DNA from: Ricordea florida
Taxonomy: Eukaryota > Cnidaria > Anthozoa > Corallimorpharia > Ricordeidae
Direction of reading: 5' to 3'
DNA: 64,000 nt
Assembly (NCBI GenBank): GCA_949710005.1
Contig: OX453275.1
Coordinates: forward strand, 14,037,299 to 14,101,298
The notes beneath the pieces were generated by a model. That model searched no databases. It was not told where the DNA came from and was given only the letters and a program-made list of their open reading frames with translations. The translations under genes were made by a program, and so were the position numbers. Shown one piece after another: positions 18,039-42,093 of the stretch. Position 1 is the first letter of the stretch. Each line of letters opens with the position of its first letter.

Positions 18039-18265
18039 AGTAGTATATTAGAGTCACTTATCCCGGGATTTCGCTTCGCTCATCCCGGGCTGCGTGACTC
18101 TAACCTTCTCCATTCTAAAAACCCTAAACCTTGGAGTTCTTACTTACGGATTTTGTGAAATCTTTGATGTTAGGTTTAAATAAGTCAATCTGAGTTTTAA
18201 GTTTTTGTTTTAAAAAATTGAAATCCAATTCGTAATATACCCGGTATTTTCTAAGATTTAATAAG
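18039..18265 (+). repeat. left terminal inverted repeat of the Polinton-like element
   Basis: Inverted match to 41,867-42,093, diverged but clear. Shared words include CACTTATCCCGGGAT, CCCTAAACCTTGGAGTTC and AATAAGTCAAT. It contains an internal palindromic section (atcccgggatttcgc / gctcatcccggg, 18,060-18,090). It ends exactly at the ATG of the polymerase gene, so it must hold that gene's promoter. Confidence 0.9.
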
Positions 18266-24558: not shown

Positions 24559-25497
24559 TCATACATCTGTTTTGAGAACATGATCAGGGGGCAATTCAGT
24601 GTCTTCAGGAATAACTTTGAGCTCTTCCCTAACAAAACCTCTTTTAGGCGATCCCTCTGTTAGATAGTACAACACAGGTTGATTTTCTGAAACTTGACTT
24701 GTAGATATACCATAGACATCAAGGCTCCATATAGGGTCTGTGGCTCGTGTTCTGTCACCACCTTCGTACTCTCCAGGCGAATATAAATATCTGACTTGAA
24801 CATCAAAGGGTAATTTTTTCTCACCAAAAGCAACCTCTCGCTTGTAACTCTTGTACTTGAGTTCAATCTCTTTCATCCTAATAGCTTCCTCTGGTTCTTT
24901 ACCTGTGATGCGTGTTGGCTCACTGTTCAAAGTCTTAATAATGGCCGGTAACCGTTTCACCCATAATCTAGATCTACCACCACCAACCATTTCCTGCGCA
25001 TATTGATGACTAAATAATTTTTCACCGATCGTCCTATTAGCTCTTTCCACAAAAGCCTGCGCTCGATGGTTTCCAGCCTCACTTCTTTGTATAGTCACTT
25101 GATGCTTGTCCATCAAATGTGTAACATTACCCATGAATTCTTTACCGGGATCCACCATTAATGTATGTGGCCACTGTAACCTGCGAGCATAAATCTTTTC
25201 GAAAGCCTTGGCAACTTCCCCACTATCCTTCGAAGTTAATGCTTCAGCATCTTTATATCTGGAAGCAATATCAATCACAACTAGCGCATAGCGATATGTT
25301 TTTCTTCTCACTGTATCGTGAGGAAGAAATAATAAGTCCGCTTGATGAATTTGATTTGGCTTATCAACGACCCAATGTGGTCTGGGTATATACCTCTGGG
25401 GTGGAGGATATATTTGCCACAAGGCTTGCTTCTCCAACCATTCTCTCGCAACATTTTCACTTACTTTGGCTGCACTGGCCAATTTGGGTATTGCCGA
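24559..25497 (-). CDS. Polinton integrase (retroviral-type, DDE), 5' end probably lost
   Basis: Catalyses insertion of the element. The core has D49 (QADLLFL), D111 (MVDPGKEF) and E146 (AFVERANRTIGEK) of the DDE triad, numbered from the codon at 25,482. A C-terminal basic region with GKKLP- and LYSPGEY-type strands follows. No ATG precedes residue 1; the frame is open to 25,497 and then meets a stop, beside a foreign-looking stretch (25,500-26,700). The zinc-binding or helical N-terminus is therefore probably truncated. The catalytic residues are intact. Converges on the polymerase, overlapping it by 25 bp. Confidence 0.9.
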   Translation of the reverse strand, partial: SAIPKLASAAKVSENVAREWLEKQALWQIYPPPQRYIPRPHWVVDKPNQIHQADLLFLPHDTVRRKTYRYALVVIDIASRYKDAEALTSKDSGEVAKAFEKIYARRLQWPHTLMVDPGKEFMGNVTHLMDKHQVTIQRSEAGNHRAQAFVERANRTIGEKLFSHQYAQEMVGGGRSRLWVKRLPAIIKTLNSEPTRITGKEPEEAIRMKEIELKYKSYKREVAFGEKKLPFDVQVRYLYSPGEYEGGDRTRATDPIWSLDVYGISTSQVSENQPVLYYLTEGSPKRGFVREELKVIPEDTELPPDHVLKTDV

Positions 25498-25499
25498 TT

Positions 25500-26735
25500 A
25501 TAACCCACCGATTAATTTTTGAGCAATTTTATTGGCTATTTTGAGTCACGTGGTAAAAAATCGGAGGACGGTTATCACGCAATAACCCCCGTCCGAAGCG
25601 ATATTTGTCGTCCGATTTTTGGATCACAATTAAGAAACGAATCGTAATTTTAAAGTAGCTAGTCGCAATTGTAGCTCCGGATAAACAGAAAATCAACAAA
25701 ATAAGCTGCTGGTGTTTTTGGCATGGAGGTAAGCAAAAGTTACGAACCCTTGGGCAATCAAATTCTTGAAAATCTCCCCACTGAAATGTGCAAAAAGGCT
25801 GGTTTTGCACGAGGTACACTTCCCCTTGTATTTAAAGCTGCCGGTTGAGAAACTTTTCCAAGCCAAAAACGATAAACTACGCAAACGATAAATCGCTCCA
25901 GTGGTACAGTACACGACTAACAGTAGAACAACTATTCGAGTCATCCCATACTATCGCTCGATTTGTAGCTCGAAAGAATTCGGTTCAGTCAGTTCAACCT
26001 GTTCTTGCAACTGGAACTAAAGTTCGCCTACCCTTGTTTTTCTTCGATCTCCTCGGCGCCCGCCATTCAACAATAAAGCCAAGTTTGCGAACAATTCCTT
26101 CAACTACACCATATTTTCCAAATTCCCTGTTTCATGGGTGTAATTTCTTTCGCAGTGTTAGTGGTATGGTTGGATTTTCTGTTCTAATCCATTGGAAATG
26201 TTTTGATTTGATATGTTTTTGAAAAAACAGTTGGTAAAATAAACCAAAAGTGCCGTGTTTTCCAGATTTTCATGTAAGGGGCGTTGCGAGAGTATGTTTG
26301 ACATGACAGCTTGTCAAGCTCTGGTTCAATCACAGTTTATATAAAACAATTTTAACCAATCACTGTACATGCAGTGTTTGCATCAGTCGCCTGAATCCCC
26401 AGTCAGACGACTTGTTTTTCTTTTTCTTCAACACGTACAAAGTAGAACTTAATTCACGATCGCGGAGGGTTATAAAATAAATAAACCCCTTCCTGGCTTA
26501 CTGGTATATGGGAGGATAATGCCCTTGGCTGAGAGATTGTCCTCAAAATTTCACATATGCCCTCGAAGCTTCGCTTCTCGGCCAACTGTTCATTTTTCGG
26601 ACAATCTCTCAGCCGCGGGCATTATCCTCCGATATACCAGCCGCCGGAAGGGGTTTATTTACTAAATATCCCTTCCAATATCCACTAGTTGAATAGTATA
26701 ACTGACTTAAAATATTATGATTGTTCATTTATAAA
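25500..26735. other. unexplained stretch between integrase and capsid genes
   Basis: In a compact element this 1.2-kb gap is unusual, so it is probably inserted DNA. It contains an imperfect hairpin (aaaaatcgga/tccgattttt, 25,556-25,620), a plus-strand frame of 125 codons at 25,845-26,222 without recognisable domains, and the fold-back element at 26,474-26,666. The last 70 bp (26,667-26,735) probably belong to the capsid gene promoter. Confidence 0.4.
26474..26666. repeat. fold-back (inverted-repeat) element, about 190 bp
   Basis: Two arms of about 75 bp are inverted copies. The left arm runs aataaataaaccccttcc, then tatatgggaggataatgcc, then ctgagagattgtcc. The right arm reads back the same with a few changes. 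The spacer is about 40 bp. It is a MITE or fold-back element that could form a long stem. Confidence 0.75.
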
Positions 26736-26755: not shown

Positions 26756-27991
26756 ATGGCAACTATATCACAGACTCTTGACCCGAATCGTAATCCTAGA
26801 ACGGTGAAAGGTTTGAAGGCTCAATCATCATTGAATCGATTCACATTCACTCCTTCAGCCGCCAAGCCTGGTGAAACATTATATGTAAACATCCCGAACC
26901 TATCAGATAACATGGTTATTGTACCGGATAGTGTATACCTTATCTTTGATTTGAATGTCACAGGTCATAAGGATAACACTCTAGTTAATAACGTGGGAAG
27001 GAATCTCATTTCAAGGTTTAGAGTTCTTTTTGGAGGAGAAACTATTCAGGACCTTCATAGATTTGATTTATTCAAAACGTATCATGATTTATTCCTGTCA
27101 AAAAGTGATCGCGAAAATAGATCGAGACAAGGCATCTCATCTGAAAATGTGAGGAAACTTAGAACCAACGCTGGGGATAAAGATACTTCAGATGCAAAGG
27201 AGAATGTTATAGCGGCGATTCACAGCACCAAGTATGCAATACCGCTCGATCATCCAATCCTTAGAGACCATGGAGTTTTCTATCCAAGAGGGTTACCACA
27301 TCCTCTAACATTTGAAATCACTCTAGCTCCAGTTTCTGATGTTGTTGTTTATTCAAACGCTGAAACACCCCCAGATTATACACTAACAAACATTGAGCTG
27401 GAGTATTCTTGCATATCAAGTAATACATTAGTGGATAATGCTGCGGCTTCTTATAGAACTGGAAAAGGGTTCACGTATGAAAAAATCATTCTCCACAAGA
27501 CTTTTGCAATCTCCAAGCCTAACGATGGTGTGATTAATGAACATATAAATATACCCAGGAAGTCCATGACTGGAATTTTATGTCTTTTCACGGATGGTTA
27601 TGCAGCAGGAGAAAGAGATTCCGAAGATTTCACAAACCCAAAGATCACATCAATCAAAATTAACAGTGATGGTGTGCCAAACCGCCTATATTCAAAGGGG
27701 ATGATGCCGACTGATTTATGGCAATCTATAATTAAACGGTTCGGGGTTAATGATTCCATCAAAGAGGCTGATTTTTACATAAACAAGTTTGCCCTGTGGA
27801 TTGATTTGAGAACTTACCCTGATAATGATATCCATGGAAACGGTTTCGAGCTTAGTAACACACGTGATGGTATCAAACTTGAGATCAATCGGCAAAAGGG
27901 CGGAACTGGGGTTATTACCTGTTACATGTTTGTGGTTGCTGACGCGGTCATGGGGATCATGAATTCAAATTTAAAAGAAATAGTCTATTAA
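26756..27991 (+). CDS. candidate major capsid protein (double jelly-roll), 411 aa
   Basis: Intact frame from ATG 26,756; the upstream TTG in frame was not used. The N-terminus (about 30-110) has the pattern of a first jelly roll: PGETLYVNIPNLSDN, a strand YLIFDLNV, then FRVLFGGETIQDLHRFDLFKTYHDLF. The C-terminus ends in hydrophobic strands (GVITCYMFVVADAVMGI), like the end of Polinton capsid proteins. It lies 13 bp before the packaging ATPase and starts the structural block. Length is short for Polinton hexons (usually about 400-650). The assignment rests on position and strand pattern, so structural comparison would decide. A penton or other shell protein is the alternative. Confidence 0.6.
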   Translation: MATISQTLDPNRNPRTVKGLKAQSSLNRFTFTPSAAKPGETLYVNIPNLSDNMVIVPDSVYLIFDLNVTGHKDNTLVNNVGRNLISRFRVLFGGETIQDLHRFDLFKTYHDLFLSKSDRENRSRQGISSENVRKLRTNAGDKDTSDAKENVIAAIHSTKYAIPLDHPILRDHGVFYPRGLPHPLTFEITLAPVSDVVVYSNAETPPDYTLTNIELEYSCISSNTLVDNAAASYRTGKGFTYEKIILHKTFAISKPNDGVINEHINIPRKSMTGILCLFTDGYAAGERDSEDFTNPKITSIKINSDGVPNRLYSKGMMPTDLWQSIIKRFGVNDSIKEADFYINKFALWIDLRTYPDNDIHGNGFELSNTRDGIKLEINRQKGGTGVITCYMFVVADAVMGIMNSNLKEIVY

Positions 27992-28004
27992 ATAGAGTCG
28001 AAAG

Positions 28005-28619
28005 ATGAATGAATTAAGAGATAAAATACCATTCAATTGCATCATTACAGGACCAACAAATTGTGGAAAGACTGGTGGATCAGCTTAGAGGGAATTTCAG
28101 AAAAGCATTTGAGTATGTTTTATTGATATTCCCGACTTATGTAAGGAACAAGACTTTTTTGCAAAGGGTGATAAAAGATTCTTTGTGTTCTCACCAGATG
28201 CAAGTGATCAGGATGAAATAAATGATTTATTAACTGCCTGCTCTATACGCTTCTCAGGTGAGAATACACTTATAATCTTGGATGATTGCGCCGTATCGAA
28301 AGATCTTAAGAAACGGTTAGACAAATTCATCGATCTTGCCTTCTCTGGTAGACACAATGGAATATCTGTATGGGTTCTCACCCAGCAGCTTACTTCGATT
28401 GCGAAACCTTTCCAAGAGAATGTCGCTTGTGTGATATCATTTTATAACCCATCTCAGGTTGCAATGAAAATGTTATTTGAGGACTATGGAGGTGATTTGG
28501 AGGCTGACACTCGCAAACGGCTAGAGAAGTTACTCAAAAAGAAAAAGTATGCTAGATTATGCTTTTGCTTGCGTCACCCTTTCCAAAGTTATTTAGAGAC
28601 ACCTGGGATTAGTGAGTAA
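28005..28619 (+). pseudogene. FtsK/HerA (A32-type) genome-packaging ATPase, two compensating frameshifts
   Basis: It would pump the element genome into capsids. The ATG at 28,005 starts a frame with the Walker A motif GPTNCGKT (28,050-28,073). One base shift just after it, near 28,073, and a second near 28,165 return the frame to the original phase. Between them the plus-one frame encodes a plausible middle section. The last frame has Walker B (TLIILDDC, about 28,268) and the A32-like continuation GRHNGISVWVLTQQ. Two nearby opposite indels suggest either decay or sequencing error. About 200 residues, normal for the family. Begins 13 bp after the capsid candidate and ends 2 bp before the next gene. 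Confidence 0.85.
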
Positions 28620-28621
28620 TC

Positions 28622-28822
28622 ATGTCTAGTCCTGAAGAGATATTAAATGGTGAAGTACCAGTGGATAATCACCCGCCAAAAACCGCCACCCATGATGATG
28701 TGGAATTTAAGAGGGAATCACTGTCAATTTTAGCGTGTTTGGGATCAACGAAAGAATATATGGGTACTGAGATGGATCTCAAGGATACATACAAACTATC
28801 AGAAAAAGACGTGGAAAAGTAA
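28622..28822 (+). CDS. small unrecognised element protein, 66 aa
   Basis: Intact frame starting 2 bp after the ATPase stop, an operon-like spacing. Acidic, with no membrane segment. The middle part (FKRESLSILACLGSTKEYMG) may be helical. Function unknown. Position between the ATPase and another small gene suggests a virion or assembly role, but that is inference. Confidence 0.6.
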   Translation: MSSPEEILNGEVPVDNHPPKTATHDDVEFKRESLSILACLGSTKEYMGTEMDLKDTYKLSEKDVEK

Positions 28823-28840
28823 TACAAGATATACCAAGTC

Positions 28841-29158: not shown

Positions 29159-29176
29159 ACATAAGACTACTTAAAA

Positions 29177-29201
29177 CTCCTAATAAGACACCCATTAGGA
29201 G
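29177..29201 (+). terminator. gene-end hairpin H1
   Basis: Perfect 8-bp stem CTCCTAAT/ATTAGGAG with a 9-nt loop, starting 18 nt after the stop at 29,158 and followed by ACTTAAAGGTAAA. Same build as H2-H5. Proposed to mark transcript ends, as hairpins do in mimivirus; that role is inference. Confidence 0.6.
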
Positions 29202-29291
29202 ACTTAAAGGTAAATCATACAATGTATAAATAAAAAATCTAAAAACGAAAAATTGATATTTCATATTTGTAATTCAAATAGACTGGCATAC

Positions 29292-30308
29292 ATGGCTACA
29301 GCTGCAAAACAACACAGAATCAGACCCGTAATCATTTCTCCAGATTCTAAGTTTTATTGGAAATCCATATTTGTGGAAGGCCCAATTCCCTCTGGTTATA
29401 ACTGGTTAACCTCCAAGGTTTATGTAAAAGGTAGCAAAGGTGAGAAACGCCAGATCTATATTAAATTGGCTGAACAAAATTTCAGTGGGATATCAGGAAT
29501 ATGGCGCTATGGAATTGATAAAAAGAACCAGACTAATAAAAATATAGAAGGGCTACAAGTGGGTTATCCAATGACATCACTTTTAACCGTAGATGACCCT
29601 CAACCTGATGAGCAAGCAACTATTAATGCATTTAATAATATGCGCAAGATTACAGCAAATCATCTCGTCAAATTTTGCAAAGGCAAAAACCCTTAGATAA
29701 AGGATGGAACTCCCACTTACGACGAATATAAGAGATTCAAGGGTGGAGACGATTTGATCTCTACCGTCAAACCTATATATAAACAAAATAAAGCTTATCT
29801 CAAGTTTTATACTAGCGGTAAGGGAAATAAAATGAGGTGCATAACCCAAGTCTGTGACCATTCCAAAAAGAGAGTCACCTACTCAAAGTACTTGTGGACT
29901 CCTAACGAGCATGTACAAGGTGATGGAGAAATTATCGTTAGGTGGGATGATATATTCTGGGGATCTCACGGGGACACAGGATATGGAACCTCAATCCGCC
30001 TTCGTGTTTCACATATGATATTTACCCCTACGGAAGAGAAAGAGGAAGAAGTTGAAGAAATTCAAGACCTGCTTGGTTTAGACGAAAGTTCAAGTCAAGA
30101 GGAAGATGATGAGGAAGATGATGAGGAAGAGAAAGAACCGTTTGTTAAAGATCCAAAACACAACTTGGAAACCCTTTTGAGTGAAAAGGATCCAACTGGA
30201 AACAAACAAAAAGCATCTTCCAGGAAAAACAAGATGTCCTCAAAACACCAATCCAAGGGTGAAATGACCAATAGGCCCGAAATAAATTTCACATATGAAG
30301 ATGATTAA
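29292..30308 (+). pseudogene. unrecognised element protein with acidic C-terminus, one in-frame stop
   Basis: ATG 29,292 (a TATA-like TATAAATAAAAAA lies at about 29,223). The same frame runs to 30,308 except for a TAG at 29,694-29,696, so a full product would be about 338 residues. The first 240 residues look globular (FYWKSIFVEGPIPSGYNWL, IRWDDIFWGSHGDTGYG-like strands). Residues about 258-285 are almost entirely Glu/Asp, followed by a Lys-rich part and a final EDD. An acidic tail after a globular domain is seen in viral single-stranded-DNA-binding proteins. That role is a guess. Followed 14 nt later by hairpin H2. Confidence 0.65.
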
Positions 30309-30322
30309 TAATCGTATTACAA

Positions 30323-30347
30323 CTCCTAATAGTAAACCTATTAGGAG
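30323..30347 (+). terminator. gene-end hairpin H2
   Basis: The stem CTCCTAAT/ATTAGGAG equals that of H1 and can extend to 10 bp with a 5-nt loop. It starts 14 nt after the stop at 30,308 and is followed by ACTTAAAGGTTAAA, nearly the same tail as H1. Confidence 0.6.
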
Positions 30348-30378
30348 ACTTAAAGGTTAAACATAGCAATATTTAAAC

Positions 30379-30777
30379 ATGACTGACGAAGTTGTTGAGC
30401 AGATCACAAAGGAGCCCACTGTTAAAAATAAATTGAAGGACCCTAAGAAAGTAGAAGCTGGAAGGAAATTAGCTGCTTGGCACAAGAAAGCTAAAGAGGC
30501 ATTGAAAAAGCAGCAAGAGGATGAGGCAACGAGAAATCAACAAGAAGAGGGGGGCACTTCGATGGGTATTAATGCTTGGATACCAAGTTTATCCTTTCAA
30601 ACTGTGTTAACAATCGGGTCTATAGGAGTTGCTGCATATGCTTTATTCACGAGATATAAAAGTAACATAGCTGACTTACAGGTACCTGCTCCCACCTTCA
30701 ATCCCCCTCCTATCAAAAACATCGATGAGACCATGGAGACTGTCCAAGAAAATAGTTTAAAAGATGGGTGGATGTAA
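30379..30777 (+). CDS. unrecognised element protein with one membrane segment, 132 aa
   Basis: Residues 1-55 are Lys/Glu-rich and helical (DPKKVEAGRKLAAWHKKAKEAL). A hydrophobic segment follows at about 73-90 (VLTIGSIGVAAYALF), then a Pro-rich stretch. First gene of a block of three small membrane-type proteins with gaps of 8 and 9 bp. Function unknown; a virion membrane or vertex component is conceivable. Confidence 0.65.
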   Translation: MTDEVVEQITKEPTVKNKLKDPKKVEAGRKLAAWHKKAKEALKKQQEDEATRNQQEEGGTSMGINAWIPSLSFQTVLTIGSIGVAAYALFTRYKSNIADLQVPAPTFNPPPIKNIDETMETVQENSLKDGWM

Positions 30778-30785
30778 TCCATAAA

Positions 30786-31019
30786 ATGTCAGACAATAAG
30801 CTTGTAAAGACGGTTACTGATTCTGCAGTTAACGTTCTCATAGGGCTCTCCGCCGCTGTGGATTATGAGGGGAGAAAGGTTCTTAGAGAAAAAGGATCAT
30901 TCATTGCAGACCCATCATCTAGTATCATGAATTATATAAAATGGGTCGCTATTTTAGCCGCAAGCATGTATTTTAAAACTTACTTAGAGGATCAGAAGAT
31001 AATACCCAAAAGCATGTAA
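30786..31019 (+). CDS. unrecognised small membrane protein, 77 aa
   Basis: Start ATG 30,786, 8 bp after the previous stop. An in-frame ATG at 30,768 overlaps the previous gene and is less likely. One hydrophobic segment near residues 52-66 (MNYIKWVAILAASMYF). Function unknown. Confidence 0.6.
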   Translation: MSDNKLVKTVTDSAVNVLIGLSAAVDYEGRKVLREKGSFIADPSSSIMNYIKWVAILAASMYFKTYLEDQKIIPKSM

Positions 31020-31028
31020 AAAAAAAGG

Positions 31029-31430
31029 ATGGCAAGTATAGCGATAATGCTTGGTGGGGCAATCCTAAATGCAACGGCCTTCATTGGTGGAAATTATATA
31101 GCAAAGGCTATCAGTGGGTCATCATCCACCGATCTCCAACTTGAAAGGGAAAGGTATGACAAAGCGTTAGAAAAATATCAGAAAGATTACGCTGCCTACC
31201 AGGAAAAGAGGTTAGCTTATATTGACTTTATGAATAAAAGAAAGGGTGATGCGAATCAAGCCTCTGAGAATATATCAAAGACAGATGAAGCGCTTAAATT
31301 GTACAGTCAAGCCAATCCACCTAGATTCTCTGATTATTACAGACTAAATGATGATCAGAAAATGGGTGAGATGGCTTATGTTTCCGGTGGGATGTTAGCT
31401 TTGGGATATATCACTAGCAAATGGTTGTGA
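31029..31430 (+). CDS. unrecognised membrane/coiled-coil protein, 133 aa
   Basis: Gly/Ala-rich hydrophobic segments at both ends (SIAIMLGGAILNATAFIGG and GGMLALGYITSKW) enclose a charged coiled-coil (residues about 38-85, LERERYDKALEKYQKDYAAYQ). Nine bp after the previous gene, and followed 18 nt later by hairpin H3. Similar small proteins are, to my recollection, widespread in cnidarian Polinton-like elements but unnamed. Confidence 0.65.
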   Translation: MASIAIMLGGAILNATAFIGGNYIAKAISGSSSTDLQLERERYDKALEKYQKDYAAYQEKRLAYIDFMNKRKGDANQASENISKTDEALKLYSQANPPRFSDYYRLNDDQKMGEMAYVSGGMLALGYITSKWL

Positions 31431-31448
31431 TGAAACCAACTTAGAAAC

Positions 31449-31474
31449 TTCCATATTGGATATCAAATATGGAA
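31449..31474 (+). terminator. gene-end hairpin H3 (overlaps next start codon)
   Basis: 9-bp stem TTCCATATT/AATATGGAA with an 8-nt loop, 18 nt after the stop at 31,430. Its right arm contains the ATG (31,469) of the next gene. Confidence 0.5.
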
Positions 31475-31924
31475 AATGATCCTGATGAAAACGATCCTTT
31501 CGGGTTGGGAAAAGAAAACAAACAAGAAGATCCTGATGATTTTGAAAATACCCTACTGCTTGGTCGGCAACCTTCCACATCAGGTGAAGTAATGGAAACA
31601 TCCACAAGTAAGGGTGTAAGACCTAAAACTAAATCAGGATACGTAGGATTACCAAGTGAAGATATAGAAATGGTTGTCATGAATAAAGAAAGAACTCAAG
31701 ATGAAATCTGGGGAACGATTAAAAGCAAATTCCCAAATGCCAAACCTAATTTTCTATTCAGATATAAGAATGAATTTAAGGTAATCGAAGTGAAATTAAC
31801 TGGTAAAAAGAATGTATGGCATGACCTATTTGATGCTCAAGGTAATTATAATAAATCGGCAGGAAAAATAATTGAAAAATATCTGGGGCCACCTTCGGAG
31901 AATAAGCCAATGATGATGAGATAA
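31469..31924 (+). CDS. unrecognised element protein, 151 aa, possibly the N-terminal part of the next gene
   Basis: Acidic N-terminus (ENDPDENDPFGLG), then a globular second half (FPNAKPNFLFRYKNEF, VKLTGKKNVWHDLF). The frame stops at 31,922. A second frame continues with coding-like sequence for about 25 bp until the palindromic insert at 31,952. The downstream gene has no start codon of its own near its beginning, so the two may once have been one gene with a frameshift here. Confidence 0.55.
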   Translation: MENDPDENDPFGLGKENKQEDPDDFENTLLLGRQPSTSGEVMETSTSKGVRPKTKSGYVGLPSEDIEMVVMNKERTQDEIWGTIKSKFPNAKPNFLFRYKNEFKVIEVKLTGKKNVWHDLFDAQGNYNKSAGKIIEKYLGPPSENKPMMMR

Positions 31925-31953
31925 CTAAGAAAATCAAAGGCTCCTTCGAGCTA

Positions 31954-32481
31954 CCTCATGGTATGTGGTAATTATTCCATGAAGTGCTGTCCTTTCCCCA
32001 GACCATGAAGTGTTCATTCCGAATAGTTCGTTTTGTGCACTCTTGCTACGACTGATCGATTACTCGTCGTCCAACTTGGAGACATCGTCACTCTTAAGAC
32101 TTTAAAACCCATTTCTTTGCCCTCGAGCATTCTTGAACACATTTCCTGTTCGTTCGCGAGATCTTCAACAGTGTATTTTGATCAAAGATGGAGCGAAAGG
32201 AACGAAAACCCGCCTTGACAATCTTTGCGTCGGCCACAACACAACAGACGCCATTTTGTAAACATGTGCTGCCGCTTTGTCTCACCCCCTCCCCCCACAT
32301 ATGTGAACATAAAACAATTGCACGACTTTGTGGACGAAACCAAACCTAGTAGGGGAGATAGGGGGGAACCTGTTTAATTTACATTTAATGCGGATTTAAT
32401 GCATAAATTAATGTCTAACGGGAATGGAGTGACAAATCCAACCATTACTATACCTCATGGTATGATATACATACCATGAGG
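31954..32481. mobile_element. small inverted-repeat element with palindromic end
   Basis: About 530 bp between two coding stretches. TACCTCATGGTATG stands at 31,952-31,965. At the right end it recurs directly (32,451-32,464) and inverted (32,470-32,483), forming a perfect stem with a 5-nt loop. Read as terminal inverted repeats it is a MITE at a TA target. Read as direct repeats it is an insertion into a pre-existing hairpin with a 14-bp duplication. Both fit. No transposase. Confidence 0.55.
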
Positions 32482-32482
32482 T

Positions 32483-34790
32483 AAAAAAGGGGTTGTTAGT
32501 AAACTGAAGGAAGCGCTAAGATTGCATCGAGATAAACCACTAAAAACCCCTGAAGAATCAATTCAAATAGAGAATCTTGAAAGACAAATTAGTGAAGAGG
32601 AGAGAGAAATAGGTGACATGGAGGAAGAGAATGAGCAAATACAAGAACGAATGTCATTGCGAGATAGGGTAAAAGCCATCTTCAAGAAATATGGGTTCAC
32701 AGTCTTTGCCGTTGTGAGTGCTGTTAGTGTGGTCATTAGCGTTATCGTTTCTAATCTTTCCAAAGGCCTATCTAAATTGGGTAAAGGTGTGGGAGATGGA
32801 CTGAAGAACACTGGTAAGAAACTTGGCGAGATATTACCTGGTATGGTTGGAGCAATCGTTAGTTTTCTCACAAGGAGAAAAAGAACATTTAAGCAGTCTT
32901 AAACTGAAATTAATCTTGGCTTAAAGTTATGTTTACTACATTTAATTAGAGGTTTAAAAACTTAAAAATAAGTTTAATTTCAACTTAAACCCGCCTTAAA
33001 CACCCTTAAGGCTAAAGCTTAATGTATGTTTAAGTGACCGTTAAATACAACCAAAATATCTTCTGACTTTTACATTATGTTTAATTAGAACCTTAAACAG
33101 GTTAAACACATTCTAAATGTGCGTAAAAGTCATGTTTAAGGGTAATTAAATGATCATAATCATATTGTAATTTTAAAATCTTCACCTTTATCCTTTCGGC
33201 CATATTCATTTCATAAGCATGTTTTAATTCATCCACCAAATTTATTCCTAGACACTGGTGTTTTTTACTTGGTCATTACATGTACAGTGTATATTTCGTT
33301 TGTTGTTGTATTGTTTGTTGCAGGCTTGCAGTAAACTTGTTTGATTATTTCAATAGTAGAACTCCGTCGTGAATTTCTCAAACCACGTCGGTTGTCCTGC
33401 TTCTCCTTCTTTTGCAAGTTCGTTTCCTAATCTTTCATTCCCCTGTCGCAGGCTTGCATTGGCATCCTCGAGTCTCTTTTGACTGTCGCAAATCGCATCC
33501 ATTCTTCCGCTCATCCTTTCAATAATAAGAAGCTGTCGTTCCTGTTGAGCACCTAGTAAAGTCATCATTACCGAAAACAGTGAACTGTAACCAAATGTAA
33601 AAGGCGATCGAGCACATGGCAAGAAACGAAGCTAGAATGCGAACTTCCAAATGACGCTAACTACATGAAACATACATCCCGCGATCGACACTCTCGCCTT
33701 CTGATTGGCTTACTATCGAAAACCAACCAATTGCAATGAAGCAGAAAAACCAAATGCAAATTGAACTTGGGATAACAATAGGGCCATTCATTGCTCTTGC
33801 CGCAAATCAGTCATTACCGATTGCGGTTTTTGTCTTTGATAATCAACAAAATGACCGAAGATTATCCTGAAACAATTGTAAGTTTCGTCGAAAACACTCC
33901 AAGCCCTTTCCTCTGTGATAAGTGGAAACTTGCGGAAAGTCCTTTGCAGATTCATCTTCGTATCGTCGTCACACAAAAACGAAATGTTCTTCTCAATCGC
34001 TAAAGCGTCGCTGTCGGTGATTGTGGATTTCCGATGAATGTGATGAACAAGATATATTTTGAGTAGCACCAGTATCAAAATTTTGATGCATAAGCTAATA
34101 AAGGTACATGACTATATTAGATTGTATGGACATGGAGACTACATATACGGATAAAATTAAAGTTTCTTTATTCACTTGTCTTAGTGTGATTAGTGAAATA
34201 TGGTCATTTTTCTTGCCCTGTAGGTTGCAGATGATATTTTTTTCTTAATTGATTATATTCCTTTTTTCATTCAACCGAGTTCAAAATGTCAAGGCACCTT
34301 TATATTTCTTTCATGTTTTGGTGTTATGATTCTGTTTTGGAGAAGAGACAATTTGAAAATACTTAAGCAATGAAGTGCATAGTGATGTTACACACTGGAC
34401 AATTTTAATTCTTACTATTCCTGTTATATAATAATAAATAGTCATTTATGGGAACCAAAACACAACCATTAATTTAGAGAATGTTTAATCTCCATTTCAG
34501 GAACTTAAATGGCTTCAGGTGTATAATGTATGTTTCAGGGGCACTTAAACCCCACTATGACAATAGCATTGATTTAAGTGATGTTTTAAACAATTAAACT
34601 AGACTTAAATGTAGACCCAAGTTCTAGGGTTGTTTAATGCAACTTAAATGTGATTAAAATGTGGCTTTTGGTCTAGTGTCTGTTCAAGACTGCTGGAGAG
34701 GTAATTTCTTTCCTGGGTAAAAATGCTTGGTTATTGATCGTTGCTGTTGTCGTGTATTTCGTGGATAATTTAAAGAAGAAGAATCGTTAA
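32483..34790 (+). pseudogene. unrecognised element membrane protein, split by a CACTA transposon
   Basis: Part 1 (32,483-32,868): a basic stretch, an acidic coiled-coil (IENLERQISEEEREIGDMEEENE), then a long hydrophobic helix (FTVFAVVSAVSVVISVIVS) and a Gly/Lys-rich repeat-like part (KGLSKLGKGVGDGLKNTGKK). Part 2 (34,682-34,790): a second hydrophobic helix (WLLIVAVVVYFVD) and a Lys-rich end. Leaving out the transposon and one TCT copy, the frame is continuous. No ATG lies near the beginning, so the true start is upstream or lost. Amphipathic and hydrophobic helices suggest a membrane-active virion protein (inference). The next gene follows by 8 bp. Confidence 0.75.
32869..34678. mobile_element. 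non-autonomous CACTA (EnSpm-like) transposon, 1,810 bp
   Basis: Left end CACAAGG and right end, read inward, CACTAGACC. The next 20 bp also match partly (AAAAG and ACATTT). Flanked by a 3-bp duplication TCT (32,866-32,868 and 34,679-34,681), as expected for the CACTA superfamily. Both subterminal regions (32,895-33,170 and 34,470-34,670) are full of TTTAA/CTTAAA words in both orientations, the subterminal repeats usual for CACTA elements. No transposase. Two minus-strand frames (33,350-33,622 with a coiled-coil, and 33,788-34,078) are not recognisable. Confidence 0.85.
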
Positions 34791-34798
34791 TCATAAAA

Positions 34799-34978
34799 AT
34801 GCGAAGTTATTGTGTAAAAGAGAGAAAGGAGACTGAATGCGTGCCTGGCAGTGAAACATACACTAAAACCTACAATGGCCCGTACATGATGAAATGCAAA
34901 TGTTCCAGCTGTGGGATAACAAAGGTTCGGTTCCTTTCAGAGGCTGACTATAAAAATTTAAAGAAGTCCAAAAGATAA
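34799..34978 (+). CDS. small zinc-ribbon protein (DUF5679-like), 59 aa
   Basis: ATG 8 bp after the previous stop. Cysteines at 5, 14, 33, 35 and 38 (YCVKERKETEC, then MKCKCSSCG), with a basic C-terminus. The layout recalls the tiny zinc-ribbon family found in giant viruses and Polinton-like elements, where an N-terminal C-x-x-C pairs with a C-x-C-x-x-C. Here the second cysteine of the first pair appears to be Glu8, so zinc binding may be damaged. The role is unknown in the family; nucleic-acid binding or transcription is likely. Confidence 0.65.
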   Translation: MRSYCVKERKETECVPGSETYTKTYNGPYMMKCKCSSCGITKVRFLSEADYKNLKKSKR

Positions 34979-35078
34979 TCCAAAAAATGCTGAGCGTTAC
35001 AATGTACGAATCTGAAACTAGGGTATATTTGGATCCTCCCCTGGATAAGATTCGGGAGATACAACTTCTGGATTGTAA

Positions 35079-35127
35079 GGCCTGGTTCAGACGCCGCTCC
35101 ACTCATGTACCGAACCTAACTGAGTTT

Positions 35128-35158
<31 letters not shown>

Positions 35159-36245
35159 TCTGATTCAGACGGCGCACCGTGTGTCGAACCTAATCTTTAT
35201 TTCATGTATGGAAAAAGAAAAAGGCCTGGGTCTGATATTATATCTTCGCGCCATAATTCAACTTTCAAAGATGTTGGCTGTGAAGGAGAGGATAGCTCTG
35301 ATTAGAGCTATTTCTCGGGGAATGATGTAATTGTAATGAAGGACATGAACGAAAGAACATAAATTTAAACCAAGGAAAATAAAATTTAAACCGAGGAAAA
35401 AATTGAACCACAACATGGCCACTATTATTGACCTTCCACAGAGGGATAAATATAAACATTAACACAAGCAATTTGCAGTTTCAAATTTTTCAATTATACC
35501 CTTCTGTTGATCAATTTTAATCACCTAACTTGCACTTATGCTTACTTTAAAGCAACAAAGGAAACCTTGAATGCTGGAATTCCTTCGGCGATGATTTTGT
35601 TGTGTTGGAAAAGAGAATCAATCACGCATGAGATAAACTGCAAACATAACTACATCGGGTGTTTACATTTCTGGTTTGTGATAGCTTCTTGCTGATTATC
35701 ACTTTTATTAGCGAAAGAAGATTACCCTTCCTTTTCACTGTGGACTTCATCTGTCGCATCTTCCTTTTCTTCAGCTTCTTCATAACTGTGCTTACTTGCG
35801 ATCAGCGACTCGGTTACGGGCCTTACAGTTTCACACTCAAAACAGTAGCCGACACTCTTCCCACGTATCCACCTGTCCACGCTTTCATCCATCTCTGGCT
35901 CGCTACATAAGTTGCAAATGGCTACTTTGCAGCGAATGCAGCGATATTTGGTCCATCTTCTGCACTTTACAGCTCTATCCGCCTTTTGCCGCCATTTTCC
36001 CTTCCTCGTAAGACTTATGAGCATGCGTAACAAGTTCTCGGAAGGAGTTATGGGAAGATTTATAAATTATCATAATGTATGCATTTGATTCGGCACATGA
36101 GAAGAACGCCGTATGAATCACCTGCCGCTCCAATGTCGAATAATGCGACAGACCCTGTCGAACTTAACGTTTTTGCCGCACCAAATTGAAACTGCCGTAC
36201 CAAACTGATTCAGACGCCGCTCTTTTGCCGCACTTAATACCTCAG

Positions 36246-36280
<35 letters not shown>

Positions 36281-36286
36281 CGGGCC
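35079..36286 (+). mobile_element. PIF/Harbinger-like element, internally deleted copy (1,208 bp)
   Basis: Ends GGCCTGGTTCAGACGCCGCT and its inverse at 36,262-36,286, flanked by TAA on both sides (35,076-35,078 and 36,287-36,289). The plus-strand frame at 35,148-35,330 matches the start of the transposase frame of the right copy (MARHLIQTAHRVSNLIFISC) and then jumps to sequence that follows the transposase there. The core has therefore been deleted. On the minus strand a Cys-rich frame (35,722-36,033; CRRWTKYRCIRCKVAICNLC) may be the element's second, zinc-finger protein. Confidence 0.85.
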
Positions 36287-36289
36287 TAA

Positions 36290-36295
36290 GGCCCA

Positions 36296-36330
<35 letters not shown>

Positions 36331-37914
36331 CTGAGGTATTAAGTGCGGCAAAAGAGCGGCGTCTGAATCAGTTTGGTACGGCAGTTTTAATTTGGTGCGG
36401 CAAAAACGTTAAGTTCGACAGGGTCTGTCGCATTATTCGACATTGGAGCGGCAGGTGATTCATACGGCGTTCTTCTCATGTGCCGAATCAAATGCATACA
36501 TTATGATAATTTATAAATCTTCCCATAAGTCCTTCCGAGAACTTGTTACGCATGCGCGTAAGTCTTACGAGGAAGGGAAAATGGCGGCAAGAGACGGATA
36601 GAGCTGTAAACAGTGCAGAAGATGGACCAAATATCGCTGCATTCGCTGCAAAGTAGCCATTTGCAACTTATGTAGCGAGCCAGAGATGGATGAAAGCATA
36701 TTGGGTAGGTGGGAAGAGTGTCGGCTACTGTTTTGAGTGCGAAACTGTAAGGCCCGTAACCGAGTCGCTGATCGTAAGTAAGCACAGTTATGAAGAAGCT
36801 GAAGAAAAGGAAGATGCGACAGATGAAGGCCACAGTGAAAAGGAAGGGTAATCTTCTTTCGCTAATAAAAGTGATAATGAGCAAGAAGCTGTCACAAACC
36901 AGAAATGTAAACACCCGATGTAGTTATGTTTGCAGTTTATCTCATGCGTGATTGATTCTCTTTTCCAACACAACAAAATCATCGCCGAAGGAATTCCAGC
37001 ATTCAAGGTTTCCTTTGTTGCTTTAAAGTAAGCGTAAGTTTAAGTTAGGTGATTAAAATTGATCAACAGAAGGGTATAATTGAATAATTTGAAACTGCAA
37101 ATTGCTTGTGTTAATGTTTATATTTATCCCTCTGTGGAAGGTCAATAATAGTGGCCATGTTGTGGTTCAATTTTTTCCTTGGTTTAAATTTTATTTTCCT
37201 TGGTTTACATTTATGTTCTTTCGTTCATTTCCTTCATCTTATCCTTAAAGTCCTCCTCAGTGCATGGCATATGCTTCTTGACACAGTCCTCCCAAAGGTT
37301 TTCAACGGTCGATTGACATACCTGAGTTACAATCTCATGTACAGTTGAAACACCCAATCCAGCCATTTCCGCTATGGTGTAGTAATAATCACCTCTTCCG
37401 AGCCTATAAAGGCAAATGCCTAGCCGACATTCGGGTGATATGGGGTCTTCGTTTACTGTCTGGCGTTCCAAGTCGTTTCGAATCCGGTTCAGAATGAAAC
37501 TGAATGTATTCTTCGAAATTCTGAAAGTTATCTTGAATCGTTCATCGGTATATGTTGTCCAAACCATCTCCCACCAGCCGTTGCTCCTGAGCAGACCGCC
37601 AGCAAGATCGTACATGAACCATCTCCGTGGCTAAATTCTGCTTACGCGAAAGCAACAATATCCCTGCCAAGGACAAAAGAAGAGCTATCCGTCGTCTTCT
37701 TAATGCAATGGGCATTTGCGCACTTTCGGAAAACATCCTCCTGCGTTCGTTTCCCCGAGAAATATCTCTAATCAGAGCTATCCTCTCCTTCACAGCCACC
37801 ATCTTTGAAAGTTGAATTATGGCGCGAAGATATGATATCGGACCCAGGTCTTTTTCGTTCTCCCTACATGAAATAAAGATTAGGTTCGACACACGGTGCG
37901 CCGTCTGAATCAGA

Positions 37915-37945
<31 letters not shown>

Positions 37946-37949
37946 AAAC

Positions 37950-37988
<39 letters not shown>

Positions 37989-37994
37989 CAGGCC
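36290..37994 (-). mobile_element. PIF/Harbinger-like element, inverted second copy (1,705 bp)
   Basis: Same family as 35,079-36,286 but in opposite orientation, abutting it with one shared TAA (36,287-36,289) and TAA at the outer end (37,995-37,997). TAA/TTA duplications are the rule for PIF/Harbinger. It contains the N-terminal transposase coding pieces. The plus-strand counterpart of the zinc-finger frame (about 36,580-36,735) is broken by a stop and a small deletion. Confidence 0.85.
37211..37925 (-). pseudogene. Harbinger transposase, N-terminal part only
   Basis: Two overlapping minus-strand frames (37,925-37,542 and 37,615-37,211) represent one broken gene. The first holds an Arg-rich start (RRMFSESAQMPIALRRRRI). 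The second has the helical region before the nuclease (FRISKNTFSFILNRI, YRLGRGDYYYTIAEMAGLGVSTVH). The sequence ends before the DDE catalytic domain, so no active enzyme can be made. Confidence 0.75.
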
Positions 37995-38572
37995 TAAGAT
38001 ACCTAAAAGATTGGTTAATTTCAAAGATCGCCAGGGTTTACTCAAGGAAGATAATCGTCCATTTATATTAATCGAACCTGGTACCTATTCATTGCGCAGT
38101 ATTCATGCGATTTTTCTCAATGATACAGAGAATGCCAAGCTCTCAATCATCGAGACTGATACCGTTGATTATCTATATTCCAATAAGAGCTATAACATTA
38201 AACTTTCGAGAGGTCTACAGTTTGGGCTTGGGGTGCCTGAAGTTATATCACCTGGCAAATTATACCCCATAAATGTCCAGATGAAAGAGCCTCTGAAACT
38301 TACCTGCAGTCTGGTGGATAATCGATCATCCTATATGAATAATGGTAGATTTGTTGACTCGGTAAAAATTTCTCTTTCATATCTACGTGCCAACATACCA
38401 TCGCAGAATTATGCAGCTGTACCGACTCAGAAATTTAAAGCCCCTATAAATCACTTCACTCTAACCATTTTGAATAGTGAAGGGAAAAAATTGGATTTGA
38501 AAGGGTCTTCCATCACCGCTAGTTTAAGATTCAGATAATATTTTAAAAGAACGTAAAACTTGTAACTAAACC

Positions 38573-39205
38573 ATGGATGAGTATAATAAGATTTATCCTG
38601 AATTACATGCATCGGCACCTCCCCCTGATGGTGCAACTTTCAGACTACAACAATGTTGTGAAGCACTTGATAGACTGAAAAACGAGTTGAGGCATTACGA
38701 GAAGGTTTTGAAAAAGTACAATCGATCAAAAGGCACGCTCATAAATGCAAGTTCAACCTGTGGTATTCTATCTTGTATTTTGGCAGCAGGTGGTTTAGGC
38801 AGCTTTCTGAGTGGGGTTGGAATTATAGCGGCCATACCCTTAGGAGTGGCAAGTGGGTTACTTGTCTGTACATCAATAGCATGTGAACAGATCTCCAAAA
38901 GTTTATCCAGGAAAGCCGTAAAGCATCAAAGTACCGTTACCCTAGCTAAAGCCAAAATAAATACAATAGAGGATCTAGTCTCCAAAGCACTTCGTGATAA
39001 TAAGATCTCTGATGAGGAGTTCTCCATGATAATCGAAGAAGTTAATAAATTCGAGAAAATGAAGGATGAGATACGACTCAAGGCTCAAAAAAAATCCTAT
39101 GAAGAGCTACGATCCTGTGGTTGTAAAAAAGAGGGTCAGAGAAGAAATTCTCAAAGAGTTAAAAGGAGAATGATAGCCATAACATACGATAAGGTTTCTT
39201 ATTGA
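38573..39205 (+). CDS. unrecognised element protein with central hydrophobic region, 210 aa
   Basis: Intact. Begins acidic, followed by a helical coiled-coil part (LDRLKNELRHYEKVLKKY). A strongly hydrophobic Gly/Ala-rich region at about 58-105 could span a membrane twice (CGILSCILAAGGLGSFLSG, AAIPLGVASGLLVCTSIA). Then comes a charged helix (ISDEEFSMIIEEVNKFEKMKDEIR) and a basic C-terminus. 34 bp after the previous gene, followed 16 nt later by hairpin H4. Function unknown. Confidence 0.65.
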   Translation: MDEYNKIYPELHASAPPPDGATFRLQQCCEALDRLKNELRHYEKVLKKYNRSKGTLINASSTCGILSCILAAGGLGSFLSGVGIIAAIPLGVASGLLVCTSIACEQISKSLSRKAVKHQSTVTLAKAKINTIEDLVSKALRDNKISDEEFSMIIEEVNKFEKMKDEIRLKAQKKSYEELRSCGCKKEGQRRNSQRVKRRMIAITYDKVSY

Positions 39206-39221
39206 GTTAAACCCAACAATC

Positions 39222-39246
39222 CTTCTATCTAAACCCTGGATAGAAG
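39222..39246 (+). terminator. gene-end hairpin H4
   Basis: Perfect 8-bp stem CTTCTATC/GATAGAAG with a 9-nt loop, 16 nt after the stop at 39,205 and directly before the ATG (39,247) of the next gene. The stem differs from H1/H2 but the length and position are the same. Confidence 0.6.
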
Positions 39247-41248
39247 ATGGAATTGCTTGAAGGTTTTAGTAATAGATATTGTTACGAAAAACTGTGTTAC
39301 GTGACTTGCGTGACTTTCTAGAAGCTTCGCGAAAGTTCATAGCGTGTCTATTTTGGGATCTTATGTAAGCGCTTCTAAAATAGTACATTTTGTAATCCTT
39401 CTATAGTTAGACTTTTGGAATGTTCTAGATTCTTATTGCATCAGTATATAAGTAGATGAGTTAGAGTTAAGATTCAACTAGTTTTCACAAGCGAAGAGAG
39501 TTGAAGGTTAGACGACGTGCTTAGTCAAGTGTGACGGAAGCAGTATTTATTCAAGTTGGCGGAGGCCGTATAAGTTTATTCACTTAAGTACAGTTGTGAA
39601 GTTCTACTTCGTGGAAACTACGTTCATTTTGGGAATAAATCTTCTTGTTGCTGTTCCGACAACCCTGCATTCAGTTTAGTTAGCAAGCTACCCGTCCTCT
39701 AAAAGTTTACCCGACGTAACAGATATCCAAACGCTGATCGAAGTCAATTTACATATGTGACTGATATTTATGGCGGATACATGAAATGGAAAAGGAACGG
39801 TTCGACAATCATGTCTTATGATGACCCTACTGGTAAGACATGGACGGAAGATCTTCCACAGAGCTTCAAGGGGGAATTGTGGGCTGATTTGGGTTTGAGT
39901 GGTAAAAAAGTAAGCTCTTTCCCAAATAGTCTAACTTTAACTGATCGGTTTTGTCCAATACCAGCAATTGATTTTGATGATTTCACCAGCGATGTTACAA
40001 CGTTACTAACTTCTTTGGATATATACGTATCCAATACAAAGAAGTTCACTGCTAACATGCGTAACGTATTTACATCTCAAGTTGTTACTTTCAAGTCTGG
40101 TGATCAAAGTCGAAAGTGGTTGAACGCTCCCGATATGAATTATTGGCCGCAACAATTGAACTTTGCAGTGTGGTGTGCAAACCTCTGGATGTGGAATTAG
40201 TCCCTTTGAGAGTTTGAATTATCCTAAAGTTGTGGATAGCTTCATTAAATTTCACATATATTTCACCATAAGGCGGATATAATACGAATTAAGTGTGCCG
40301 CTACCAGATGAACAACCATTTAATATATCAAACAATCCATATAGTAAAGTTAGCCATCAAAGATTATGTAGTGAGTTTGGGATAGCGAACAATTCTAATT
40401 TCAGATGGAAAGGTGGGCGAAATCATGGTCTTGGTGATATCTTTCTGGACTATGGAGCTGGGTATCAAGGACGTGGTGGTGGATTTCAAAATGTTCATGT
40501 GATCAGAAATTATAATGAAGAGGCAAATCAATGGCCAGGTGAAGGGGGTAAATTCTCGGATGATGGTGGTAAGAAGGATAAGGGGGATCTCATCTCGTTC
40601 ATTCGAAATGATGATTTTGCTGGATACAAGTATGCTTGGTTCATACCAACGAGTAGTCGTGGATTGACCAAGGCTGGACTGGGTAGAGTGAATCTATCTG
40701 TAGAAGCTTGCGTTTATTGTGTATTAGGGTCACAAGTTAACACTAGAAATTCGATCGTGGGAACTGGTGGTGGGGCGATCGAGACTCAGCAAGAGTTTTT
40801 ATCTTTGTTTGAAAGTAGTGTGATTGAAAATGATATATCAAGCTCGGTTCAGAGATATCAGCTTGCGACTCAAGAGGCAAAGTTAAGATTGGATCTTGCG
40901 ATTGCGCCTGGGGTTTGGCTGATGCCTAGTAATATGATTATAAATACTGAAAGTGTGGTTGGGTACAATAATAATCTGATGAAAGCCACTGGTGATATGA
41001 AGTTTGGTGTTAATTCAAATGTGAATCTGGAGATGAAAACTGTTGGGATAATACATAACTTGGGTTCTTCAAAGGTTCAGTTACCACACGCGTCTATCAA
41101 AATTGAAAATGTACAGGCATCGCTACCAACTATGGAGGTGAAACAAAAAATCAAAGAGCCTCTCCCAGTCACTACTACACAGCATGAAACTAATCTGATA
41201 GCATTGACAATTGGTGTTGGGGGGCTCGCATGGGCCCTATTCCGGTAA
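39247..41248 (+). pseudogene. large unrecognised element protein, split by a solo LTR, with frameshift and stop
   Basis: ATG 39,247. Eleven codons in, a solo LTR interrupts it (39,280-39,721). The frame continues exactly when the LTR and one GATAT are left out. A one-base shift at about 40,178 and a TAA at 40,280-40,282 break the rest, which runs to 41,248. The full product would be about 517 residues. Landmarks: DIYGGYMKWKRNGSTIMSY, SQVVTFKSGDQSRKW, YWPQQLNFAVWC, APGVWLMPSNMIINTESVV, and a C-terminal hydrophobic anchor (LIALTIGVGGLAWALF). I recall similar unnamed proteins in cnidarian genomes. Size and terminal anchor suggest a virion surface protein (inference). Confidence 0.7.
39280..39721 (+). 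mobile_element. solo LTR (442 bp)
   Basis: Starts TGTTACG, ends CGTAACA, flanked by the 5-bp duplication GATAT (39,275-39,279 and 39,722-39,726). A TATA-like tatataagta lies near 39,446. No internal retroelement sequence remains, so it arose by LTR-LTR recombination. The superfamily is not determined. Confidence 0.88.
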
Positions 41249-41262
41249 TCGCCAGGTGAAGT

Positions 41263-41287
41263 TTTGTAACGCGAGTCACGTTACAAA
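41263..41287. terminator. gene-end hairpin H5 between convergent genes
   Basis: Perfect 9-bp stem TTTGTAACG/CGTTACAAA with a 7-nt loop. It starts 14 nt after the plus-strand stop at 41,248 and lies 16 nt beyond the minus-strand stop at 41,304. It could serve both converging genes. Confidence 0.6.
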
Positions 41288-41303
41288 GATATATATTGTA
41301 TTA

Positions 41304-41866
41304 TTACTTTCCTTCCCTAATTTTACGGCATTCTTTACAACCGTATTTACGCTTATCATGAATACATATACCTTTACCTCCACAATCCCTACAATAATAT
41401 TTATTATTACCATTAGTACATATCTGTGAACCTCCACACTCCTTGCAATATGCTCTTTGTTTACCATGAATACATATACATTTACCTCCACAGTCTTTGA
41501 AGTGAAATTTTATTTTATTATGCCTACAAATACTACTCCCAAAACATTCTTTACAAATATCTTTATGTTTACCGTGAGAGCATACTTTAGATCCACCACA
41601 TTCTTTACATTGAGCTTTTATGCCACCGTGTGGACATATTTGAGAACCGCCACAGTCTTTACATTGAGATTTAAATCTATCGTGAGGACATATTCTAGAA
41701 CCACCACAATCCTTACAATAAGATTTTACCTTACCATGTTTACATATACCTTTACCCACGCATTCTTTACAATAGTATTTTAGTTTACCGTGAAGGCATA
41801 TACCTTTACCTCCACAGTCTTTACAATAAGGCATTTATTTGACTTTTTCGCTTTTAAATTATCCAT
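41304..41866 (-). pseudogene. tandem Cys/His zinc-knuckle repeat protein
   Basis: Open frame 41,834-41,304 (176 aa) made of nine 18-residue repeats plus a final half, each of the form C-K-x-C-G-G-x-x-I-C-x-H-G-x-x-K-x (for example YCKECVGKGICKHGKVKS). The C-x2-C-x6-C-x-H spacing suits one zinc per repeat. Repeat 7 has lost its first Cys (HFKDC) and repeat 8 has Asn instead of His. The ATG where the terminal repeat ends (41,866) is in another frame, so a one-base shift near 41,836 probably separates the true start from the repeats. Similar repeats occur in giant viruses and algae (recollection). Nucleic-acid or protein binding is likely; function unknown. Confidence 0.75.
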
Positions 41867-42093
41867 CTTATCTGAATCTAAAATGTGAGATATAACTAAT
41901 CTATAAATTCCAATTTTTTAGTAATGTAAAACTTAAACCTTAAATTGACTTATTAAAACATAACATTCCTAATTTTACAAATCCCGAAAGTAAGAACTCC
42001 AAGGTTTAGGGTTTTCAAAACGGGAAAAGTTAGAGGCACGCAGACCGGGGTTTTCGAAGAAAATCCCGGGATAAGTGCCTCTAATATACTACT
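41867..42093 (-). repeat. right terminal inverted repeat of the Polinton-like element
   Basis: 227 bp, the same length as the left repeat, from the element end to the ATG at 41,866. Diverged from the left copy by substitutions and balanced small indels. The target copy ACATA follows at 42,094-42,098. Confidence 0.9.

Follow-up and report, generated by a model that had tools for sequence, protein, structure and literature searches.

Hairpins at the gene-block ends of a Polinton-like element in Ricordea florida as probable signals for RNA 3' ends

The window analyzed here, 64,000 nucleotides (nt) of the Ricordea florida genome (assembly GCA_949710005.1, contig OX453275.1, positions 14,037,299–14,101,298), contains a Polinton-like element at 18,039–42,093, recognized by terminal inverted repeats (TIRs), an integrase, a capsid protein and a packaging ATPase. 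After correction of the gene map, all five rightward gene blocks of this element end with a hairpin (H1–H5), and the genes inside the blocks have none. Judged by their position and by comparison with related copies, these hairpins are probably the RNA 3'-end signals of late (virion) transcription units. In window coordinates and with stems in base pairs (bp), the hairpins are:

29177..29201, + strand: H1, 8-bp stem and 9-nt loop, 18 nt past the orf28841 stop, ends block 1
30323..30347, + strand: H2, 10-bp stem and 5-nt loop, 14 nt past the stop, ends block 2
31449..31474, + strand: H3, 9-bp stem and 8-nt loop, 18 nt past the orf31029 stop
39222..39246, + strand: H4, 8-bp stem and 9-nt loop (10 and 5 allowing a G-U pair), 16 nt past the orf38573 stop
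41263..41287, no strand assigned: H5, 9-bp stem and 7-nt loop, common to two convergent genes

All five lie where the first-pass annotation of this DNA had placed them, with starts 18, 14, 18, 16 and 14 nt past a stop codon, and H5 also starts 16 nt past the stop of the convergent gene. The stems of 8–9 bp and loops of 7–9 nt described there hold for H1, H3, H4 and H5 but not for H2, with its longer stem and shorter loop. Folding of ten hairpins gave energies of -7.1 to -22.8 kcal/mol.

Three pairs of frames (orf31469 with orf32522, orf29292 with orf29754, and orf39757 with orf40295) each look like one gene broken in the window. Because relatives have single frames there, neither of the stops at 31,924 and 40,200 marks the end of a gene; the orf32522 rows of relatives stop 34–35 codons beyond the stop of the window's frame. 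The corrected map comprises [MCP, ATPase, orf28623, orf28841] closed by H1, [orf29292/29754] by H2, [orf30379, orf30788, orf31029] by H3, [orf31469/32522, orf38011, orf38573] by H4 and [orf39757/40295] by H5, where MCP is the major capsid protein. The genes concerned are:

26756..27991, + strand: MCP, opens block 1; PF16903 below cut-off
28185..28619, + strand: packaging ATPase fragment, frame broken upstream; Pox_A32 below cut-off, PHROG terminase
29292..30308, + strand: block 2 gene (orf29292/orf29754), a single frame of 268–311 amino acids in several relatives, broken here
30379..31430, + strand: block 3 (orf30379, orf30788, orf31029)
38573..39205, + strand: orf38573, final gene of block 4
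39757..41248, + strand: block 5 gene (orf39757/orf40295), broken here but a single frame in several relatives; called 'penton-like' from position alone
41304..41834, - strand: Cys-rich repeat protein, convergent with block 5, with homologues in relatives

Within the element, six of the 18 stops tested are followed within 60 nt by a perfect stem of at least 8 bp (H5 counted for both of its genes), versus at most three in 2000 sets of dinucleotide-shuffled windows. Such stems occur in 0.87% of all 60-nt windows when H1–H5 are set aside. The comparison with shuffled sequence proposed in the first-pass annotation therefore bears out the position of the hairpins, with density alone weak at two- to four-fold. 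The non-chance feature is the position 14–18 nt past the last stop of a block, not density. The left arm holds five perfect stems of at least 8 bp versus 1.2 in shuffles (maximum 5), none of them after a tested stop. The hairpins at ACTTGATG.. and CTTCTATGAT.., located inside the integrase and TFIIB-like genes, were set aside as coding sequence.

Comparison within the genome (538 Mb, 48 contigs) drew on at least 101 scored MCP matches, ranging upward from 73% identity with the window's own at the top and many of them without stops, and on at least 150 matches to orf31029. Copies, labelled L with a number, were picked near the top of the match list or spread over it and examined in pieces, with one row per copy. 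A hairpin was scored as a perfect stem of at least 7 bp with a loop of 3–13 nt, starting 8–36 nt past the stop. A tree of 30 MCP genes reveals two main groups separated by a long, fully supported branch: the window's group of 14 copies (L001–L006, L009, L015, L017–L019, L024, L025 and L029) and another of 16.

Hairpins recur at the same gene ends in copies of both groups, with 74–90% capsid identity to the window. H3 is present in 17 of 18 copies (exception, L065) and H5 in 11 of 12 (lost in L002); H4 is strict in six of 12, with a further five sharing CTTCTACCC..GGATAGAAG, which folds with one mismatch at -9.3 kcal/mol. Across copies, H3–H5 start 11–19 nt past the stop. An extra H3 set of eight copies, with orf31029 closest to the window's or spread below, contains two strict hairpins (L090, L096), a 7-bp stem whose 15-nt loop exceeds the limit of the rule (L095) and degraded forms in L091 and L093, with none in L092, L094 and L097. 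In L092, a second copy of orf31029 seems to follow the first, a tandem gene duplication; L070 likewise carries H5 twice, at 1636 and 2317, in a tandem gene duplication.

As the first-pass annotation had reported for the window, gene ends inside blocks have no hairpin: MCP 0/30, ATPase 0/24, orf28623 0/1, orf30379 0/16, orf30788 0/21, orf32522 0/13 and orf38011 0/12. Pooled H3–H5 block ends thus stand at 36/50 versus 0/117 for in-block ends, with a formal P of 2e-25 that is overstated since the rows are related. Kept out of this comparison were orf28841 (3/23, lineage-dependent) and the integrase (2/23; shuffled rate 3.5%), and the orf39757, orf31469, polB and orf29754 rows were dropped before the recurrence count. 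Shuffled hairpin rates range from 1.6 to 3.8% across gene ends, and in the right-arm loci of 11 copies the same rule finds a hairpin at 3.1% of all positions and 4.4% of all stop triplets. H2 is present in nine of the 12 relatives matching the block 2 gene (absent from L033, L061 and L063). H1 is lineage-specific, not general: three of 23 copies have it by the rule, L005 and L025 carry it as well, and L015 and L017 have a degraded form. Most sampled relatives, put forward in the first-pass annotation as a check, thus carry the hairpins at the same gene ends, a result qualified by H1 and by the extra H3 set.

Eight copies of the other group (L036 and L058–L064) reveal a different arrangement, with the orf28841 frame followed at once by another ATG. 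In all eight, a hairpin with the sequence CTCTTAATA..TATTAAGAG, or a length variant of it, lies downstream of the orf28841 homologue and upstream of the orf29292 homologue. An extra frame of more than 200 amino acids is open before this hairpin in five copies (L060–L064), and the hairpin starts 33–34 nt past the nearest open reading frame stop in L059, L060, L062 and L064 and 19 nt past it in L063. Because it follows the extra gene of these sister copies, the hairpin tracks the block end wherever the block ends.

Within the stems, pair-preserving double changes occur at eight of the 18 pair positions of H3 and H5 combined: three of nine in H3 (pairs 2, 5 and 8, numbered outward from the loop) and five of nine in H5 (pairs 1, 2, 4, 5 and 6). 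The H3 stem takes the forms CCATATT/AATATGG, CCTTATT/AATAAGG and CCTTACT/AGTAAGG, and the H5 stem the forms TTTGTAACG/CGTTACAAA, TTTGTAACA/TGTTACAAA and TTTCATAATGT/ACGTTATGAAA, the last with one G-U pair. The L025 form of H5 makes an 11-bp stem that includes one G-U pair. Broken pairs are seen too, in L091 and L093, and in the other group most copies have C facing C at H3 pair 8. Although they come from few lineages, these paired changes in both H3 and H5 argue that selection keeps the fold, whose letters may change in pairs. The earlier suggestion that shape rather than sequence is under selection holds in so far as paired changes occur, but the stem sequence is largely conserved within each position.

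Several features tie the hairpins to the preceding rather than the following genes. The hairpins keep a fairly constant distance from the stop, whereas the position of the next ATG ranges from within the stem to ~90 nt beyond, and no gene follows H5; hence we read the hairpins as 3' ends. One hairpin would close each block of tightly packed, same-strand genes shortly past its last stop, and termination or cleavage at or within the hairpin would give the block's transcripts a common 3' end. Between convergent genes, the single H5 would serve both strands. RNA synthesis, its ending at the hairpins and the acting factor are all inferred steps of this model. Pfam scans of 28 window and relative proteins, in which remote homologues could be missed, recognized no RNase III, poly(A) polymerase or RNA polymerase, so that the host or a helper virus would have to supply the enzyme.

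A motif at the block starts suggests a possible, more tentative extension: a private late system in which a TFIIB-like factor of the element would start the blocks at an ACTTARA-type promoter and the RNA hairpin would end them, with the termination or cleavage activity supplied by the host or by an undiscovered helper virus with Mimivirus-like rules. The features involved are:

26705..26711, + strand: ACTTAAA before block 1 (MCP), candidate promoter element
29202..29208, + strand: ACTTAAA directly after H1, before block 2
30348..30354, + strand: ACTTAAA directly after H2, before block 3
31439..31446, + strand: ACTTAGAA between the stop and H3, before block 4; 11 of 11 distinct sequences
L087:6682-7500, + strand: probable TFIIB-like gene

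ACTTARA-like motifs are located at block starts and are rarer ahead of in-block genes, both in the window and in relatives; upstream of MCP, such a site is present in 27 of 30 distinct sequences. The pattern was derived from these data and then counted in them, and the counts are no independent test. The TFIIB-like gene, not found in the window, is positioned between the PolB-labelled gene and the integrase at 17 of 30 MCP loci and also occurs in L086, L088 and L089. Its product is probably a TFIIB-like factor: the low-confidence model (pLDDT 56.5) has TFB/TFIIB as its best structural matches in the PDB. Pfam yields only RNase_T (E 0.041, below cut-off), and NCBIfam and PDB sequence searches lend no support.

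The block-start motif also fits an alternative in which the hairpin acts on the next gene, as a translational or promoter element ahead of each block. In the window as in distant copies, the 3' arm of H3 contains the ATG of orf31469, and an ATG adjoins H4. This role is unlikely given H5, which lies between convergent genes without a downstream gene, and the widely varying distance to the next ATG. MCP, itself a block start, has no shared upstream hairpin. In L002, L003, L017 and L025, moreover, both arms of the H3 stem depart from the window sequence, and the stem is kept with the next ATG beyond it, indicating that the stem, not the ATG, is conserved.

Somewhat less likely still, the hairpins could be palindromes acting as DNA, either as binding sites of a dimeric protein or as cassette recombination points between H1 and H2. 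The sequence CTCYTAATA/TATTARGAG is common to H1, H2 and the extra-gene hairpins, which flank a region of variable gene content, and L005 carries a tandem duplication ending in a hairpin of this sequence. Four unrelated stem sequences in one element nevertheless speak against one sequence-reading protein; G-U pairs occur, and H3, H4 and H5 are each tied to one gene end in the sampled lineages.

An improbable further reading is that host machinery forms the RNA ends downstream of the hairpins, whose sole role would be to protect the 3' untranslated region. The animal histone stem-loop lies at a similar distance from its stop, but its sequence is constant, whereas the hairpins here differ between sites. 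No Rfam covariance model, the metazoan histone 3' stem-loop included, matches any of the hairpins at E <= 1. AATAAA or ATTAAA is found within 130 nt past orf31029 and orf28841 in some copies, but past neither the H4 gene (0/12, expected 3.8) nor the H5 gene (0/12, expected 2.5). A bacterial-type intrinsic terminator was likewise considered and rejected, the combination of stem and T-run being present at none of the five hairpins, and no motif is common to the sequence after all hairpins.

That the hairpins are chance or inherited sequence without function is very improbable: the copies are related and their counts not independent, hairpin density is only two- to four-fold above shuffles and the double changes come from few lineages, but the hairpins are limited to block ends (in-block 0/117) and two of them carry pair-preserving double changes.

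A number of observations weigh against hairpins as 3'-end signals. Four of the five double-changed pairs of H5 differ in L025 only, which could carry a replaced hairpin, and the small number of lineages behind the double changes counts here as well. H4 is mismatched in five of 12 copies, H3 is missing or degraded in L065 and in six of the eight extra copies, and L002 has lost H5. Spacing can be looser in places, reaching 33–34 nt in four of the five sister copies measured and 36 nt in one H2, and left-arm gene ends are without hairpins. Perfect stems of at least 8 bp number four at 26,756–33,000 versus 1.5 in shuffles (shuffle maximum 5), and two at 38,000–41,850 versus 0.8 (shuffle maximum 3). 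AATAAA/ATTAAA is also absent within 130 nt past MCP (0/30, expected 8.4) and the integrase (0/23), and past orf31029, the H3 gene, it occurs at the expected level (5/18). The 12 nt past each hairpin contain no T-run (3–6 T). Finally, the stems here are mostly 7–12 bp long versus at least 13 in Mimivirus, as quoted in PMC8557863.

The element is delimited by its repeats and carries its integrase outside the rightward blocks:

18039..18205: left TIR, 82.6% inverted match to 41,928–42,093
41928..42093: right TIR, inverted match to the left TIR; the empty paralogous site agrees
24559..25482, - strand: integrase (rve), PF00665 above cut-off
35078..37998: foreign transposable element inside the Polinton and outside the hairpin system, with nested inverted repeats

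The TIRs measure 167 bp with 82.6% identity, and ACATA flanks both element ends as a target duplication, giving the terminal repeats of a Polinton (Maverick); an empty paralogous host unit near 46,088 is consistent with the junction. The surrounding host DNA is composed of tandem units of ~4 kb with 91–97% identity (14600–18038, 42644–46088 and 46638 on), one of which holds the Polinton while another supplies the empty site. The RVE integrase expected of a Polinton is present and also matches PHROG transposase families. A mir-9460 match (RF03254, E 4e-6, 40.7 of 85 bits, below the curators' threshold) lies within it, on its strand, at 25269–25336 (-). MCP and ATPase, the other Polinton hallmarks, are both present with proteins below Pfam cut-offs; MCP has 785 homologues at E <= 0.001, part of them annotated PF16903, and the terminase match of the ATPase is the sole PHROGs match among ten element proteins.

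In the left arm, one gene has a Rho_N domain, and fragments of a long gene were labelled PolB by eye. This long gene has no polymerase match in Pfam, PHROGs, NCBIfam or PDB sequences, only Rho_N and endonuclease VII-like stretches; one of the latter covers residues 553–599 of the L087 protein (PHROGs E 2e-5; Pfam below cut-off). At the other end, the protein at 41304–41834 (-) consists of repeated Cys/His units (CKDCGGxxICxHG) and gives numerous overlapping matches to its homologues in other copies.

The window copy is decayed, as its foreign inserts and frame breaks attest. In the 35078–37998 insert, nested and nearly perfect inverted repeats surround a transposase fragment, Harbinger-like by eye; the genes flanking this insert are ~400 nt apart in relatives. 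A 14-bp repeat at 31,952–31,965 and 32,451–32,464, the second copy within a palindrome of 14-bp stem (31952–32483), brackets ~500 bp inside what is a single gene of relatives, probably a small insertion.

The finding bears on the expression of Polinton capsid genes and on the status of Polintons as live viruses with or without helpers. Structure-coded 3' ends together with the probable TFIIB-like gene offer predictions for transcript ends and promoters, along with a candidate factor. If the hairpins replace poly(A) signals, Polintons would share a rule of expression that to our knowledge has so far been found only in protist giant viruses, virophages and yeast linear plasmids. A private transcription system, if true, would tie Polintons from large eukaryotes to both virophages and giant viruses through expression logic.

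Animal Polintons and adintoviruses have the capsid family, integrase and ATPase in common with this element, and a coral adintovirus has been described (PMC11071308). The accessible portions of the full-text literature (including PMC11071308, PMC12220804, PMC11464507 and PMC11788076, and few subscription papers) contain no 3' hairpins or TFIIB in animal Polintons. Protein and alignment scans of IMG/VR viral contigs found no relative; the hairpin pattern matched 15 contigs, and the tested element proteins were not found in their stored stretches.

Among known systems, Mimivirus is described as having palindromes past its stops that replace the usual poly(A) signal and are not conserved in sequence (PMC4402537). 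The hairpins here resemble them in lying just past stops and varying in sequence, but occur at block ends only, in an element integrated in a large eukaryotic genome. In Mimivirus and Megavirus, the RNase III-like R343 cleaves and a viral poly(A) polymerase tails the transcripts, neither enzyme being recognized in the proteins scanned here. Sputnik and this element belong to the same capsid lineage. That small double-stranded DNA virus is reported to carry hairpins at the end of 16 genes (PMC6723459); it relies on Mimivirus machinery, whereas this element has its own integrase and no known helper. In Marseilleviridae, intergenic palindromes are tied to upstream stops, with one transcript end mapped inside (PMC5413956), and pithovirus stems are quoted as at least 10 and loops as at most 10 (PMC8557863); both are large viruses, and Marseilleviridae encode RNase III and a capping enzyme. 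The yeast linear plasmids pGKL1/2 carry stem loops a median of 26 nt past stops, with a median of -7.5 kcal/mol, that are reported to be needed for 3' ends, with function restored by compensatory mutation (PMC6211774); these plasmids carry genes for an RNA polymerase and a capping enzyme of their own and display T-enrichment at ends, neither of which is seen here. Hairpin 3' signals are known as a kind, and their use once per gene block in a Polinton-like element appears to be new.

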